A stretch of DNA of 34,816 bases from positions 1-34,816 of the forward strand of contig JAGGXW010000021.1 of the NCBI GenBank assembly GCA_021162815.1, in the 5' to 3' direction. Positions within the stretch are counted from its first letter, which is position 1, and the number at the start of each line of letters is the position of its first letter. Below, one piece after another: positions 733 to 7,116 of the stretch. The stretch comes from Thermoplasmata archaeon. GTDB taxonomy: Archaea; Thermoplasmatota; E2; UBA202; JdFR-43. The position numbers and the translations under genes were made by a program. A model generated the notes under the pieces. The model was given only the letters and a program-made list of their open reading frames with translations. It was not told the DNA's origin and made no database searches.

Positions 733-1085
733 ATAAGGAGGAAGCAATGAATAGGATCATGCAGCTTTTGCACGAAATAAATGAAGTCATAAGCAGAGAA
801 AAAAGGAAAAAGGGTGAAAAAATGCTACCATATTTACAACAAAATAGGATATTTAAACCCATTCCGAAGATTTTAAATTTCATCGAGGAGAGGGCAAAAA
901 AGGAAAGCTGCCCTTACTTTACAGCAAAGCAGCTTCTAAATGAATATAAATCTACCTTCCCGGATGAGGAGATCCATATCAGCTGGATTGCTCTTGCTAT
1001 CTCCATATTGCATAAAGAAGGAAAAATTCAGAAATGGAATAGCAAGACATGGAAATGGATTGCTAATGGAGGAAAAAATGAGTGA
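729..1085 (+). CDS. Hypothetical protein with winged-helix-like C-terminal part
   Basis: 118-aa ORF, translationally coupled with both neighbours; C-terminal pattern SWIALAISILHKEGKIQKWNSKTWKWI resembles a wHTH. Confidence 0.65.
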   Translation: MNKEEAMNRIMQLLHEINEVISREKRKKGEKMLPYLQQNRIFKPIPKILNFIEERAKKESCPYFTAKQLLNEYKSTFPDEEIHISWIALAISILHKEGKIQKWNSKTWKWIANGGKNE

Positions 1086-2688
1086 GCAGGATTTCGAATG
1101 TCTAAAATGCGGGCACAAAGTAAAACTGGATTATCCTGGAACGGAGATTTATGGGAGGTGTGAATCATGCGGTAGAAACACCATCTTTCGAAAGGTGAAT
1201 ATCGAATATGATAAAGCTAACTATATTCAGGATGGCAAGTTTATTCATCGCTTGCTGGCTGAAGATATAATGAAGAGGCATCATTTTGTTACATTCGAGG
1301 ATACAGATGAAATTTTCATCTACAAAGATGGTATATACGAAGAGGGTGGGGAAGCTTTTATTAAATCGATATGCGAAGATGTACTAAAAGAAGATGCCAA
1401 TACACACAGAGTAGCAGAGGTTATTAATCACATCCGAAGAAGCACATATAAGAATAGAAGGGAGATTGCAGCTAACAACCCAAACCTACTATGCGTTAGA
1501 AATGGCATCCTCGACTTAAGTGAAATATGGGATGGTAAGATTAAATTGTTGCCTCATACTCCTGATATGGTATTTTTGAAAAAATTACCGGTGGAATATA
1601 ATCCAGATACTGACTGCCCAAAGATAAAGAACTTCATTCGTCAGATTGTTAGAAAGGAGGACGTCGCCATAATCCAAGAGATGGTGGGATATTGTCTTTG
1701 GAAAAGATATGACATTGATAAAGCTTTCCTTCTGATAGGAGAGGGAGCAAACGGCAAAAGCACATTGTTAGAGTTGATTATCGGGCTACTTGGCAAGCAA
1801 AACGTTTCATCTATTGCATTGCAAGAGCTGGAAAATAACCGATTTGCAAAGGCAGAATTGTATGGGAAGCTTGCCAACATCTATGCTGACCTGCCTGATA
1901 AGGCTTTAACCCATACTGGAATTTTTAAAATGCTGACAGGAGGAGATTTAATTTCTGCAGAAAGGAAATTCAAAGGGCATATAAAGTTTGTAAATTATGC
2001 AAAGTTGATATTCTCTTGCAATAAAATACCCGAAGCACGAGAGGATACAAGCGCATTTTATCGCAGATGGATCATCATAAACTTTCCATACAAATTCGAG
2101 GGCAAAGATGTGGACCCTCACATCTTGGAAAAAATTGCCACATCTGATGAGTTAAGTGGCTTTCTTAACTGGGCGTTGGAAGGTTTGAGCAGGCTGCTGA
2201 AAAATGGGAGATTTAGTCACTCAAAGACTACAGAGGAAATGCGAGAGGAATACATTATGGCTTCGAATCCTGTCTTGGCTTTCGTTGAAAAGTGCATTGA
2301 GCCTGATGCTGAAGCATGGATAGAAAAAGATGAGCTATATCTCGCATTCTGTAACTTCTGTAAAGATGTCGGATTGCCCATAAAGGCAAAGAATGTCTTT
2401 GCGAGAGAGCTGCCAATGTATGTTAATGTTTCTGTTGAAAGAAAGACAACAGAGGATGGAAGGGCTCGTGTATGGAGTGGAATAAAACTCAATAATGAGG
2501 GCTATAAGTATTTAAATGGACAGGATGTCCAAGATGTCCAGGATATTCTATATTTTAACTATAATCATGACAATAATAATGATAATAAAATAAGAAAAAA
2601 CTTGGACATCCTGGACAACCTGGACAATCCAGCCTCAAAAAAATCTAATCCTGAGGGGGATGAAAATGAAGCAAGAGGAAGTATTTAA
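1078..2688 (+). CDS. Zinc-ribbon + D5_N/SF3 (P4-family) replicative helicase, plasmid/phage primase C-terminal type
   Basis: Start moved from 940 to ATG 1078, preceded by GGAGG. N-terminal CLKCGHK...CESCGRN zinc ribbon; Walker A GEGANGKST; AFYRRWIIINFPYKF typical of the D5/P4 helicase family. Confidence 0.85.
   Translation: MSEQDFECLKCGHKVKLDYPGTEIYGRCESCGRNTIFRKVNIEYDKANYIQDGKFIHRLLAEDIMKRHHFVTFEDTDEIFIYKDGIYEEGGEAFIKSICEDVLKEDANTHRVAEVINHIRRSTYKNRREIAANNPNLLCVRNGILDLSEIWDGKIKLLPHTPDMVFLKKLPVEYNPDTDCPKIKNFIRQIVRKEDVAIIQEMVGYCLWKRYDIDKAFLLIGEGANGKSTLLELIIGLLGKQNVSSIALQELENNRFAKAELYGKLANIYADLPDKALTHTGIFKMLTGGDLISAERKFKGHIKFVNYAKLIFSCNKIPEAREDTSAFYRRWIIINFPYKFEGKDVDPHILEKIATSDELSGFLNWALEGLSRLLKNGRFSHSKTTEEMREEYIMASNPVLAFVEKCIEPDAEAWIEKDELYLAFCNFCKDVGLPIKAKNVFARELPMYVNVSVERKTTEDGRARVWSGIKLNNEGYKYLNGQDVQDVQDILYFNYNHDNNNDNKIRKNLDILDNLDNPASKKSNPEGDENEARGSI
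2518..2632. repeat. Inverted arrays of 9-bp iteron-like repeats flanking an AT-rich spacer inside the helicase gene
   Basis: Left AGGATGTCC-AAGATGTCC-AGGAT; right GGACATCCT-GGACAACCT-GGACAATCC; perfect 13-bp inverted repeat CAGGATGTCCAAG (2521-2533) / CTTGGACATCCTG (2601-2613). Confidence 0.75.
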
Positions 2689-3281: not shown

Positions 3282-3887
3282 ATGAAGGCAATAATCTACG
3301 CAAGAGTTAGCACGGAAGAGCAAGAAGAAAAAGGATATAGCCTTGATGCTCAAGTGGATGCATGTAAAAAATATTGTGAGATGAAAGGATGGGAAGTTGT
3401 TAAAATTTACAAAGAAGTTGGATCCGCATGGGATTCTATGGAAAAAAGAGGAAAATTCATGAAAGCTGTAGACCTTGTGGAAATGGGAATAGCAGATATA
3501 ATAGTTGCCTGGAAGCTTGATAGAATTTTGAGATTGACAGAAGATTTAATAAAACTGAAGAAAAGAATAGGATATAAATTCGTGTCAGTAACCGAAAACT
3601 TAGATGGATCTACAGCATTTGGTAGATTTGCCATAGACATAGCCATAAGAGTAGCTGAACTATCAAGTGATTTAACATCTGAAAGGACCAAGCTCATAAT
3701 AAAAAGAAGAATTGAAAAAGGACTACCTCATGGGTATCCAAAAGGAAAAAGCCGCATCCCGGAATGGAAGAAAGAAAAAATCATAGAACTGTATAAGAAA
3801 GATTACACATATAGGCAAATTGCATCGGAAATGAAAGTTTCTTTATGGACGATTCATAATGTTTTGCGAGAAAATAAATTGATTTAA
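3282..3887 (+). CDS. Short serine recombinase (resolvase/invertase family) with C-terminal HTH
   Basis: MKAIIYARVSTEEQEEKGYSLDAQ (nucleophile Ser motif), AWKLDRILR, SERTKLIIKRR; C-terminal TYRQIASEMKVSLWTIHNVL HTH. Confidence 0.9.
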   Translation: MKAIIYARVSTEEQEEKGYSLDAQVDACKKYCEMKGWEVVKIYKEVGSAWDSMEKRGKFMKAVDLVEMGIADIIVAWKLDRILRLTEDLIKLKKRIGYKFVSVTENLDGSTAFGRFAIDIAIRVAELSSDLTSERTKLIIKRRIEKGLPHGYPKGKSRIPEWKKEKIIELYKKDYTYRQIASEMKVSLWTIHNVLRENKLI

Positions 3888-4338
3888 AAATTCTTGGCAT
3901 TGCCATCGCATTTCTTTATTTTTATTTCCGCGCATTGTTTTTGCTTATATATATAGATATATATTATACCATAACGAAAATGTTTCATCCTTTACTCTAA
4001 CAAGGCAAGCAGGAACATGCGATTTTCCAGATATGCATTACCTTGCGTTTGGTAAAAGGAGCCTTTTTCCAAACAAACCCACGAAAAGGGGATGAAATTT
4101 TTTAAATGTGTTAAAATAAAATGCGGAAATAACAATATATCTATATATATAATAAAGAAACTGAATTTTCATTTCCGCTTTGTCAGGCTGGCATGGCAGC
4201 AGGACATGAATTTTACAGGAGTGAAACGAGGTTTGCACACAAAAACACTCGTTATTGTGTGCGAGGGGCGGAAATAAGGCGGAAATTGTTCATTTCCGCA
4301 TTTCAAAAAAAGAAAGAGATGAAGGAAAAGCTATCTTT
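3888..4338. other. Structured, repeat-rich non-coding region (candidate replication origin, recombination site or tandem ncRNA locus)
   Basis: Six GCGGAAAT/ATTTCCGC octamers (3924, 4123, 4171, 4268, 4279, 4292), two AT-palindromic tracts (about 3945-3968 and 4135-4154), two hairpins (4047-4074, 4235-4262) and a duplicated ~25-bp segment (4004-4030 / 4195-4218). Confidence 0.7.
4279..4299. promoter_or_regulatory. Perfect 8-bp inverted repeat GCGGAAAT-tgttc-ATTTCCGC (possible operator)
   Basis: Read directly; same octamer recurs four more times within 375 bp. Confidence 0.6.
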
Positions 4339-4584
4339 TTAGTATTTTTTAATATCTGGATCATCCGGTGTAGTATAATCTATTTTAAGTCTTAAGCTGT
4401 GTTCGATTACTTCCAATTCTGGAAATTCATCTGAAAATCTTTCCATCTCTTCATTAAATGTTTTTACAGCATTATAGCATTTATCAGCCAATATTTGTAA
4501 TCTGTGGATTCTCTCACCAATATAATGGATATACTCCTGTGTTTCTTTTTTAGCCTGTATAGTTATTTCATTTTCCATTTTCAC
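4339..4584 (-). CDS. Small hypothetical protein, likely helical
   Basis: 81-aa ORF; overlaps the upstream ORF by 4 nt (4581-4584). Confidence 0.6.
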   Translation of the reverse strand: MKMENEITIQAKKETQEYIHYIGERIHRLQILADKCYNAVKTFNEEMERFSDEFPELEVIEHSLRLKIDYTTPDDPDIKKY

Positions 4585-4814
4585 TCCTCCATTTCCGTTA
4601 TACCAAAGATCCTGTCTATTTCTTTAAATGTGTTATCTTTCATTTCCACGATCATTGTTTCTAACATCTTCTTTATCTCAGGTGTTAAGGCTCCATAGTT
4701 GTTTAACTTATCATAAAGATATTCTGCCATATCAATGGCCCTCAATTCCCTTAATTTCCTCCTTCTTATTATTTCATCCCTTTTCATTATATCACCATTA
4801 TAACATAATGGCAA
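4581..4814 (-). CDS. Small hypothetical protein
   Basis: 77-aa ORF; shares an AT-rich divergent promoter with the RHH gene. Confidence 0.55.
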   Translation of the reverse strand: MPLCYNGDIMKRDEIIRRRKLRELRAIDMAEYLYDKLNNYGALTPEIKKMLETMIVEMKDNTFKEIDRIFGITEMEE

Positions 4815-4848
4815 AGCATATATAAACCTTATGACATATATATTTTAT

Positions 4849-5025
4849 ATGGGTCTGAAACTTATACAAATAAATCTGAGTCAAGAAATGATTGAGGGAA
4901 TAGATCGGGCCATTGAGCTTGGGGTTGCTACCAATAGGACAGAATTTATAAGAATGGCAATATCAGATAAGCTCAAAGAGTTATCCATCATTGAAGAAAT
5001 GAAGAAAAGAAAACCAAGAGAATGA
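4849..5025 (+). CDS. Ribbon-helix-helix transcriptional regulator (CopG/NikR-N-like)
   Basis: MGLKLIQINLSQEMIEGIDRAIELGVATNRTEFIRMAISDKLKEL; ATG 4849 preferred over 4831 because TATA-like catatataaa (about 4817) lies at leaderless spacing. Confidence 0.8.
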   Translation: MGLKLIQINLSQEMIEGIDRAIELGVATNRTEFIRMAISDKLKELSIIEEMKKRKPRE

Positions 5026-5151
5026 GTTTATTCAAATGCTATACAAAGTTTAGTTAAAGGATATACTTATTGGATTTGGTGTATTATCGCAAAGTATATT
5101 TATTGCGATGTGATTAAGTGTAAGACATATCTTACAAATTATGGTGATAAA

Positions 5152-5421
5152 ATGGTTGAAATAAATATGACCAAAATGAGTTCCAAAGGGCAAATTGTGA
5201 TTCCTGCTGAGATTAGAAAATATTTTAGCAAAGGAGAAAAATTTGTAATAATAAAGGAAGGCGACCTTATAATATTGAAAAGCACTAAAAATATGGATAA
5301 AAACTTTGAGGAAGATTTGGAGTTTGCAAAAAGAACAGAGGATGCTTTTAAAAGATATGAAAAAGGAGAATTTAAAGAAGTCAGTGATGAAGAATTTTTG
5401 AAAATGCTTGAAGAATGGTAG
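5152..5421 (+). CDS. AbrB/MazE-family (SpoVT-AbrB fold) antitoxin
   Basis: MTKMSSKGQIVIPAEIRKYFSKGEKFVIIKEGDLIILK swapped-hairpin signature; start moved to ATG 5152. Confidence 0.85.
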   Translation: MVEINMTKMSSKGQIVIPAEIRKYFSKGEKFVIIKEGDLIILKSTKNMDKNFEEDLEFAKRTEDAFKRYEKGEFKEVSDEEFLKMLEEW

Positions 5422-5663
5422 AGATTGTTTATGATGATGGATTTGCTAAGCAAATAAAAAAGATAAAAGATCAGAAGCTTAAAGAAAGAGTTAAAAAACA
5501 AATCAGAAAGATTATAGAAAATCCAGAAATTGGTAAACCTATGAGATTTGCGAGACAAGGAACCCGGGAGGTTAGAATAAAACCCTTTAGATTGTCATAT
5601 ATCTATTTAAAAAATGAGGATAAGATTGTTTTCTTGGACCTATATCACAAAGATGAACAATAA
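5415..5663 (+). CDS. RelE/ParE-family toxin
   Basis: 82-aa protein overlapping the antitoxin gene; FAKQIKKIKDQKLKERVKKQIRKIIENPEIGKPMRF...REVRIKPFRLSYIYLKNEDKIVFLDLYHKDEQ pattern. Confidence 0.85.
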   Translation: MVEIVYDDGFAKQIKKIKDQKLKERVKKQIRKIIENPEIGKPMRFARQGTREVRIKPFRLSYIYLKNEDKIVFLDLYHKDEQ

Positions 5664-6204: not shown

Positions 6205-7116
6205 TTACTCACTCATGAATTTTCTGCCTCTTAACCTTATCACCCTGACTATTCTCTTATCATAATCTGCATCAACAGGGGTTACTGTGGCCACAACATC
6301 TACATATTTTTCCATAGGCGAGCCAATAATTTTTTTACCTAATGTCTCTTCAACCTGAAATATGCCCGAAGAGTTTGACATTTCAATTATTAGTTCTATG
6401 GGCTTTTCATTCCCAGCTGCTATGATAACACTTTCCACGGAAAGAGCGGAGACAACATGTATGCTTGTACTTCCCAGATCAAATGCCATTCTTCCTCTAC
6501 CCTTTGTCATATCAGTTGCATCTGCTATACCAACAAGTGATGCTTCCATGGTGAGGTCAGGAATACCAGCATCATGAGCATATATTGCATTCAATATAAA
6601 GCCCCTCACTTCTGTTCTCTTTTCAACATCTTCATAAATCTCCGCCAGCATTCTGTTCAGTATGGGAATGGCAAGATACACACTGTGAAGAGGGTGATTT
6701 TTTCTGTATATCTGGTTTCCAATATCATGGAGCAGGGCGGCAGAAAGGAGTATAAGAGCAACATCATCCTCATCTCCTCCTCCATACTCTATAAAATCTG
6801 TTTTTATTCCTCTTTCAGCAAGTATCTGATACATTTTCAATGCGCTGGCGGCAACTATTTTAGCATGAACTTCTCCATGGTCGTTGTATTTTAATTTTTC
6901 AACTGCAATAAAATTTGCCAGATCCCAGTTAGCTCTCGTTTCCTCATCCTTTACAAGCATTTCAAACATTTTTCTTGCCTTTTCATATCTGGATGTAGCT
7001 TCCAGAATGGAATTAACGGCTTCCTTCTCAAGTTCGGCATATCCCTCCGGAATATCCACTTCTATACCTACATTCTTTAATTCGCTGCTTGTAAAATTTC
7101 TAATATCCTTTTTCAT
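6205..7116 (-). CDS. HD-domain metal-dependent phosphohydrolase
   Basis: HGEVHAKIVAASALKMY...LLSAALLHDIGNQIYRKNHPLHS (HD signature). Confidence 0.85.
   Translation of the reverse strand: MKKDIRNFTSSELKNVGIEVDIPEGYAELEKEAVNSILEATSRYEKARKMFEMLVKDEETRANWDLANFIAVEKLKYNDHGEVHAKIVAASALKMYQILAERGIKTDFIEYGGGDEDDVALILLSAALLHDIGNQIYRKNHPLHSVYLAIPILNRMLAEIYEDVEKRTEVRGFILNAIYAHDAGIPDLTMEASLVGIADATDMTKGRGRMAFDLGSTSIHVVSALSVESVIIAAGNEKPIELIIEMSNSSGIFQVEETLGKKIIGSPMEKYVDVVATVTPVDADYDKRIVRVIRLRGRKFMSE

Follow-up and report, generated by a model that had tools for sequence, protein, structure and literature searches.

Tandem Paralogous Non-Coding Modules with Covarying Hairpins in an Integrated Mobile Element of an Archaeon

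Genomic Setting of the Non-Coding Region

The window analyzed here is the whole stretch of 34,816 nucleotides, which constitutes the entire contig C60 of the 1.2-Mb genome assembly of a Thermoplasmata archaeon. Its left end is part of an integrated mobile element. The contig begins inside the element, which is therefore incomplete; no left border was found, and synteny with related chromosomes starts only at about position 6205. The element encodes a P4/D5-type helicase, followed by small ORFs and by the gene of a small serine recombinase (Table 1). The subject of this report is the non-coding region beside the recombinase gene, at positions 3888–4338, which is separated from the helicase gene by 1.2 kb and three genes. 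The short ORFs of the region comprise 61 and 66 amino acids. It is followed by two small genes on the minus strand and by a gene for a ribbon-helix-helix (RHH) protein (4831–5025), located 0.5 kb from the region. A MazE/AbrB-like gene and then a small RelE-like gene, the second recognized by eye, occupy positions 5110–5663 and are likely a toxin-antitoxin pair of the element. No cognate Rep endonuclease (HUH or Rep-Arvir) was recognized among the window proteins searched, the element being cut by the contig end.

Table 1. Features of the element and of the non-coding region (window positions; a dot marks features without strand)
Feature	Position	Strand	Remarks
P4/D5-type helicase	940–2688	+	D5_N, DUF5906 and Pox_D5 domains
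pRN1-like origin candidate within the helicase gene, at its 3' end	2521–2622	.	Arms 2521–2540 / 2603–2622; AT-rich loop of 62 nt
Small serine recombinase	3282–3887	+	Pfam Resolvase, 1.8e-29
Module M1	3917–4104	+	Octamer, AT tract, shared segment, hairpin, T6; R2 match 3916–4047, R1 match 4002–4104; homologs G013:C6:15707–15845 and G014:C75:3031–3089
Octamer ATTTCCGC	3924–3931	+	Upstream of M1 AT tract
AT tract of M1	3945–3968	.	Near-palindromic, putative TATA box; tract kept in L034 and L035
Predicted closing stem of M1	3982–4098	+	Arms 3982–3993 / 4087–4098, then T6 at 4098–4103; fold z −3.0
Shared segments	4004–4030 (M1), 4195–4218 (M2)		
Terminal hairpin of M1	4047–4074	+	GTTTGG...CCAAAC
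Module M2	4113–4300	+	Layout as M1, period about 187 bp; R1 match 4189–4292, R2 match 4134–4223; homologs G013:C6:17894–17994 and G000:C68:6181–6275
Octamer	4123–4130	−	Upstream of M2 AT tract
AT tract of M2	4134–4154	.	Putative TATA box
Octamer	4171–4178	+	Also 5' arm of M2 closing stem
Terminal hairpin of M2	4235–4262	+	GCACACAA...TTGTGTGC; covaries with homologs
Octamer	4268–4275	−	Also 3' arm of M2 closing stem
Octamer	4279–4286	−	11 bp past the 4268 copy; pair and spacing kept in the C68 copy, and in the G013 copy with one mismatch
Octamer	4292–4299	+	Forms palindrome with 4279–4286; missing from homologs

Two Diverged Copies of One Module

The region contains two modules, M1 and M2, of about 187 bp each, which follow one another with a tandem period of 186–187 bp. 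An earlier note, made from the letters alone, had described such a tandem arrangement, and each of the strings it named (octamers, AT tracts, shared segments and hairpins) is present at the position it gave. The AT tracts that it took for palindromic and TATA-like lie at those positions and are near-palindromic, so that direct and inverted copies of the tract are an identical thing. The duplication with a common layout was corroborated by cross-detection with two models and by a shuffle test of M1 against M2. Model R1 was built from M2-type sequences only (those of the window, of contig C68 of the same genome and of genome G013), and model R2 from M1-type sequences only. R1 matches M1 of the window across the whole module as its next-best hit, with 25.8 bits and a rough E-value of 0.0065, the following match having 18.5 bits. 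R2 in turn matches M2 of the window and M2 of the G013 provirus (E-values, likewise rough, of 4e-5 and 2e-4). The local alignment of M1 with M2 scores 48.5, a value reached by none of 500 dinucleotide shuffles (maximum 37); with the AT tract removed the score is weaker (28) and was reached by 7 of the 500. Because models lacking either copy type still detect that type, M1 and M2 are, as judged by sequence comparison, true, diverged paralogs, and the duplication is not due to chance.

The octamer ATTTCCGC occurs six times within 376 bp, in both orientations, against 0.03 copies expected from the shuffled region. The earlier note had located the copies at 3924 and 4123 correctly, but its count of two missed the other four. 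Region-overlapping stretches aside, no octamer with at least three G/C exceeds three copies in any 451-bp stretch of the 34.8 kb. M1 carries a single octamer, and none was found in M1 of G013. The 11-bp spacing of the octamer pair is retained in three copies. A palindromic pair arises only once, from the octamers at 4279 and 4292 around a 5-bp centre, and the homologs do not have it.

Conservation of the Terminal Hairpin

The letters of the terminal hairpin vary between copies, with the pairing retained. The arms are GCACACAA/TTGTGTGC in M2, TTTTACCA/TTGTAAAA in the G013 copy and GACAAAA/TTGTGTT in the C68 copy, and M1 has the GTTTGG stem. That the hairpins differ in sequence while their layout is kept had also been remarked from the letters, and it agrees with a covariation check on four sequences: in alignments made without regard to structure, six of the eight pairs of the 8-bp hairpin display changes on both sides, and 90–91% of the cells pair. 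The covariation score and the share of paired cells were reached by none of 500 shuffles, and every slid control was lower. The register of the arms is fixed by conserved letters flanking the loop.

Both modules of the window also have a predicted closing stem (TTTCATCC/GGATGAAA in M1, ATTTCCGC/GCGGAAAT in M2) at the same relative position and composed of different letters; the AT tract precedes it by 34 nt in M1 and by 36 nt in M2. The fold z-score is about −5 for M2 and about −3 for M1 of the window, compared with a background mean of −0.3 in which 1 of 70 values lies below −3. Both strands fold equally well. M2 of G013 and the C68 copy have no closing stem, and their folds are no better than those of shuffles, so that of the two structures the terminal hairpin alone is general.

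Homologs in Other Elements and Genomes

The homologs number at most five. Among 81 genomes of the class, M2 has two further copies, one on C68 and one on contig C6 of G013 (Table 1). The motif GCGGAAAYNNGGCGGAAAT was found only at the three M2 places in 100 genomes, and the reversed control gave no matches. M1 recurs on the same contig of G013 and, cut by the contig end, in a third genome, G014. Exact-pattern and protein searches of viral and genome collections retrieved no relatives, and a loose pattern search returned unrelated matches only, none with the second octamer. Weak R1 matches in G013:C39, G019 and G077 (E about 0.05) were discarded, as they contain no module and the longer two look like coding sequence. 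No Rfam family matched at its gathering score; the weak matches below it were put down to chance, the best reaching 20.5 bits against a cut-off of 36.7.

The G013 copies belong to a provirus-like element, about 27 kb long, that is located between a tyrosine integrase and tRNA-Lys and bounded by a 32-bp direct repeat that is common to the element and the tRNA-Lys gene. The layout thus recurs in a related provirus, and the absence from related elements that the earlier note had held against its own proposal is not observed. A D5 helicase was not found in this provirus; because it has modules without D5, the modules are not tied to that helicase. The element (loci L034 and L230; G013:C6, about 6.6–34 kb) encodes a ParB-like protein, a serine recombinase, an ATPase and large putative surface proteins. 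A candidate Rep of this provirus (L230:7281–8225) was set aside, having no match in phages and a single-sequence structural model with an uninformative pLDDT of 42. The elements that carry M1 also encode a small protein family (..VFIRPVDVAEYIYDKLNK..), at 4581–4814 of the window, L035:1290–1490 and L034:10101–10286, in each case on the minus strand.

The C68 copy is a 95-bp block between tRNA-Met, whose 3' end is about 400 bp distant, and an RHH-ftsZ pair, with no AT tract upstream. This copy may be the relic of an integrated element, and the modules are probably element-borne.

A pRN1-Like Stem-Loop at the End of the Helicase Gene

A long stem-loop lies at 2521–2622, where the helicase gene approaches its 3' end. 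Its 20-nt arms (CAGGATGTCCAAGATGTCCA / TGGACATCCTGGACAACCTG) give a stem score of 17.4; none as high was found in 226 other stretches. Its tandem TGTCCA repeats, spaced by 9 nt, resemble the stem repeats of pRN1 (TTATGTCCATAGTGTCCAACT), an element whose origin stem-loop is essential (PMC4234260). The pRN1 control scores 22.4, and the best stem of 3888–4338 scores 9.2, below the window maximum elsewhere of 10.7. A pRN1-type origin is marked by a long, perfect or near-perfect stem that closes a loop of about 60 nt and is placed directly 3' of a helicase gene; 2521–2622 shows this pattern and 3888–4338 does not. The former is the best replication-origin candidate of the element, and the helicase-linked candidate is therefore not the region described here.

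Fourteen other D5-helicase loci were scanned, and three of them have octamer arrays in both orientations at the D5 3' end. A strict definition, which asks for four or more copies inside 400 bp with each orientation represented at least twice, is satisfied by two of these three arrays and by the region of the window, and by nothing else in those loci or in control sequence totalling 128 kb. The D5-end arrays form the arms of long stem-loops, in which the loop measures about 60–80 nt. A stem score of at least 13 near the D5 stop occurs in 5 of 15 loci, a count that is descriptive, since the stem criterion was chosen after three loci had been seen; in overlapping stretches elsewhere such a score occurs in 0 of 1372. 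pRN1 and the stem-loop at 2521–2622 are more independent checks of that criterion. A D5 profile returned one distant locus only from viral contigs.

Similar long stems, with loops of 61–79 nt, lie in other genomes of the class directly 3' of D5-type helicase genes, at L060:6665–6762 (G050:C20), L237:8755–8851 (G038:C86), L235:1375–1497 (G048:C19) and L062:3474–3586 (G055:C332); the arms of the first two are perfect 18-mers of repeats at 9-nt spacing. An octamer cluster of another kind (ACCCCTAT and AAGGTGAA, on both strands) is located at L036:690–1107 (G016:C1), about 3.2 kb from a serine recombinase gene, and no D5 helicase was found in the G016 genome. The contrast between 3888–4338 and 2521–2622 suggests the 3' end of D5 helicase genes as the place to seek P4/D5-type archaeal origins.

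Interpretation of the Modules

We tentatively favor, as the likeliest of the readings considered, that M1 and M2 each specify a small structured RNA under a TATA promoter of its own, the two RNAs being paralogous. Transcription from a TATA box in each AT tract would begin some 25–30 nt further on, where the 5' arm of the closing stem starts or shortly before it (near 3980 in M1 and near 4170 in M2). Each module would then give rise to a short structured RNA of about 100–120 nt, which would adopt a closed fold with the covarying hairpin at its end and, in M1, run into the T6 tract. The promoter-side octamers may serve as operator sites for a regulator of the element, for which its RHH protein is an obvious candidate, and in M2 two octamers would additionally build the closing stem. 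The RNAs could control copy number, immunity or gene expression of the element. This is the most economical reading because of the position of the start sites relative to the closing stems, the T6 of M1 and the covarying hairpin. The closing stems that keep their place with different letters, the fold z-scores of both window copies and the recurrence of the module in a provirus devoid of a D5 helicase likewise count in its favor. Counting against it, DNA hairpins would yield an equal fold signal, the two strands folding alike; M2 of G013 and the C68 copy have neither a better fold nor a closing stem, and the latter has no AT tract. The octamers at 3924, 4123 and 4292, moreover, fall outside the proposed RNAs and need a separate explanation. 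Of the pair of diverged ncRNAs proposed earlier, the paralogy is thus supported by cross-detection and the hairpin by covariation.

The chief rival sees in the region a cis-acting DNA site that serves replication or maintenance (crr-, iteron- or centromere-like), at which one of the element's proteins would bind the octamers, the AT tracts would melt and the hairpins might extrude. Such a role is possible and almost as likely, since origins also show hairpin DNA and octamer arrays and since the two strands of the modules fold equally; hairpin DNA is essential at the origins of pRN1 (PMC4234260) and SNJ2 (PMC13107129). The six octamers, in both orientations, are confined to the region, and the conserved spacing of the octamer pair also fits a bound site. 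The window helicase, P4 alpha and pRN1 ORF904 have D5_N, DUF5906 and Pox_D5 in common, and beside alpha the crr of P4 consists of two 120-bp repeats with a 180-bp period and five octamers each. The repeats of crr are the same as those of P4 ori. In the region, two direct modules and six octamers are present, with one octamer in M1, but the TGTCCA repeats of 2521–2622 are absent. Also against a replication site are the pRN1-like stem-loop that the helicase gene has of its own, with these other repeats, the distance between region and helicase gene, the G013 provirus with modules and no D5 helicase, the lack of an octamer in its M1, and the failure of R1 to detect a module at 13 other D5 loci. 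A P4-crr-like origin, which the octamer arrays at three D5 ends had suggested as the best reading, takes second place, these arrays being arms of pRN1-like stem-loops, of which the window has its own.

The remaining alternatives are less probable. For an action site (res-like or inversion site) of the small serine recombinase speak the end of its gene one base before the region and a recombinase of 44% identity in the G013 element with modules. Cleavage by small serine recombinases takes place at a 2-bp centre, and a res site would have inverted half-sites around such a centre and repeated subsites beside the gene; the sole palindromic octamer pair of the region has a centre of 5 bp and no counterpart in the homologs, and the recombinase gene of G013 lies 2.6 and 4.7 kb from its modules. 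We consider this site very improbable. The origin or recombination site that the earlier note had offered as its other option keeps some probability; against it speak the stem-loop at 2521–2622 with its different repeats and an octamer geometry unusual for a small serine recombinase. It is improbable, too, that the octamers are only repressor operators, for instance of the RHH protein, with the hairpins as regulatory leaders or decayed, functionless copies: the octamers flank both AT tracts and the RHH gene is close by, but the hairpin pairing survives changes of letters and, within the region, no plus-strand gene follows M1 or M2. A short peptide (MNFT...RK) encoded by M2 is scarcely credible, and its codon pattern and frames led to its rejection. 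All three M2 copies have an open ATG frame of about 20–30 codons (by eye); the M1 frame, however, stops after 12 codons, the codon differences between the window and the C68 copy are all non-synonymous (by eye), and the similarity to the C68 copy extends to sense and antisense frames alike. No protein explains the region, which agrees with the earlier view that no ORF does so convincingly.

A wider proposal, which we regard as unlikely, is that the module is of a so far undescribed kind and occurs in diverse archaeal elements irrespective of the replication gene, as a tandem pair of structured RNAs or else of DNA hairpins that can extrude. The octamers that bind protein at the promoter would also make up the closing stem, and binding together with folding could then act as a switch on the element. 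The module is a defined control element common to a D5-helicase element and a provirus lacking D5 helicase; control regions are little known for archaeal mobile elements seen only as metagenome assemblies.

Comparison with Known Systems

The favored pair of small RNAs resembles generic small ncRNAs of plasmids and viruses in its promoter-like tract, structured body, T-run and tandem paralogs; the modules differ in matching no Rfam family at gathering score. The crr of P4 (X51522 4291–4590) is similarly a non-coding region with two direct repeat modules (180 vs. about 187 bp period) and 8-bp repeats in both orientations, in an element with a P4/D5-type helicase. It differs in its location directly beside alpha and in sharing its repeats with P4 ori, whereas in the present element the helicase gene ends in repeats other than the octamers, the copies are more diverged and the hairpins are conserved. 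The hairpin origin of SNJ2 (Rep-Arvir; PMC13107129) is, like the modules, a non-coding hairpin of an archaeal provirus with an adjoining binding repeat; no Rep-Arvir protein was identified in the present element, and its modules are duplicated and have AT tracts. The origin of pRN1 from Sulfolobus (PMC4234260) is likewise a stem-loop, about 100 nt long, of an archaeal element that encodes a P4-family helicase, and its structure can persist while the sequence changes. By contrast, the single stem of pRN1 measures 21 nt, closes a loop of 58 nt and follows immediately on the replication gene, and 3888–4338 has short stems 1.2 kb away; the true pRN1 look-alike in the window is the stem-loop at 2521–2622.
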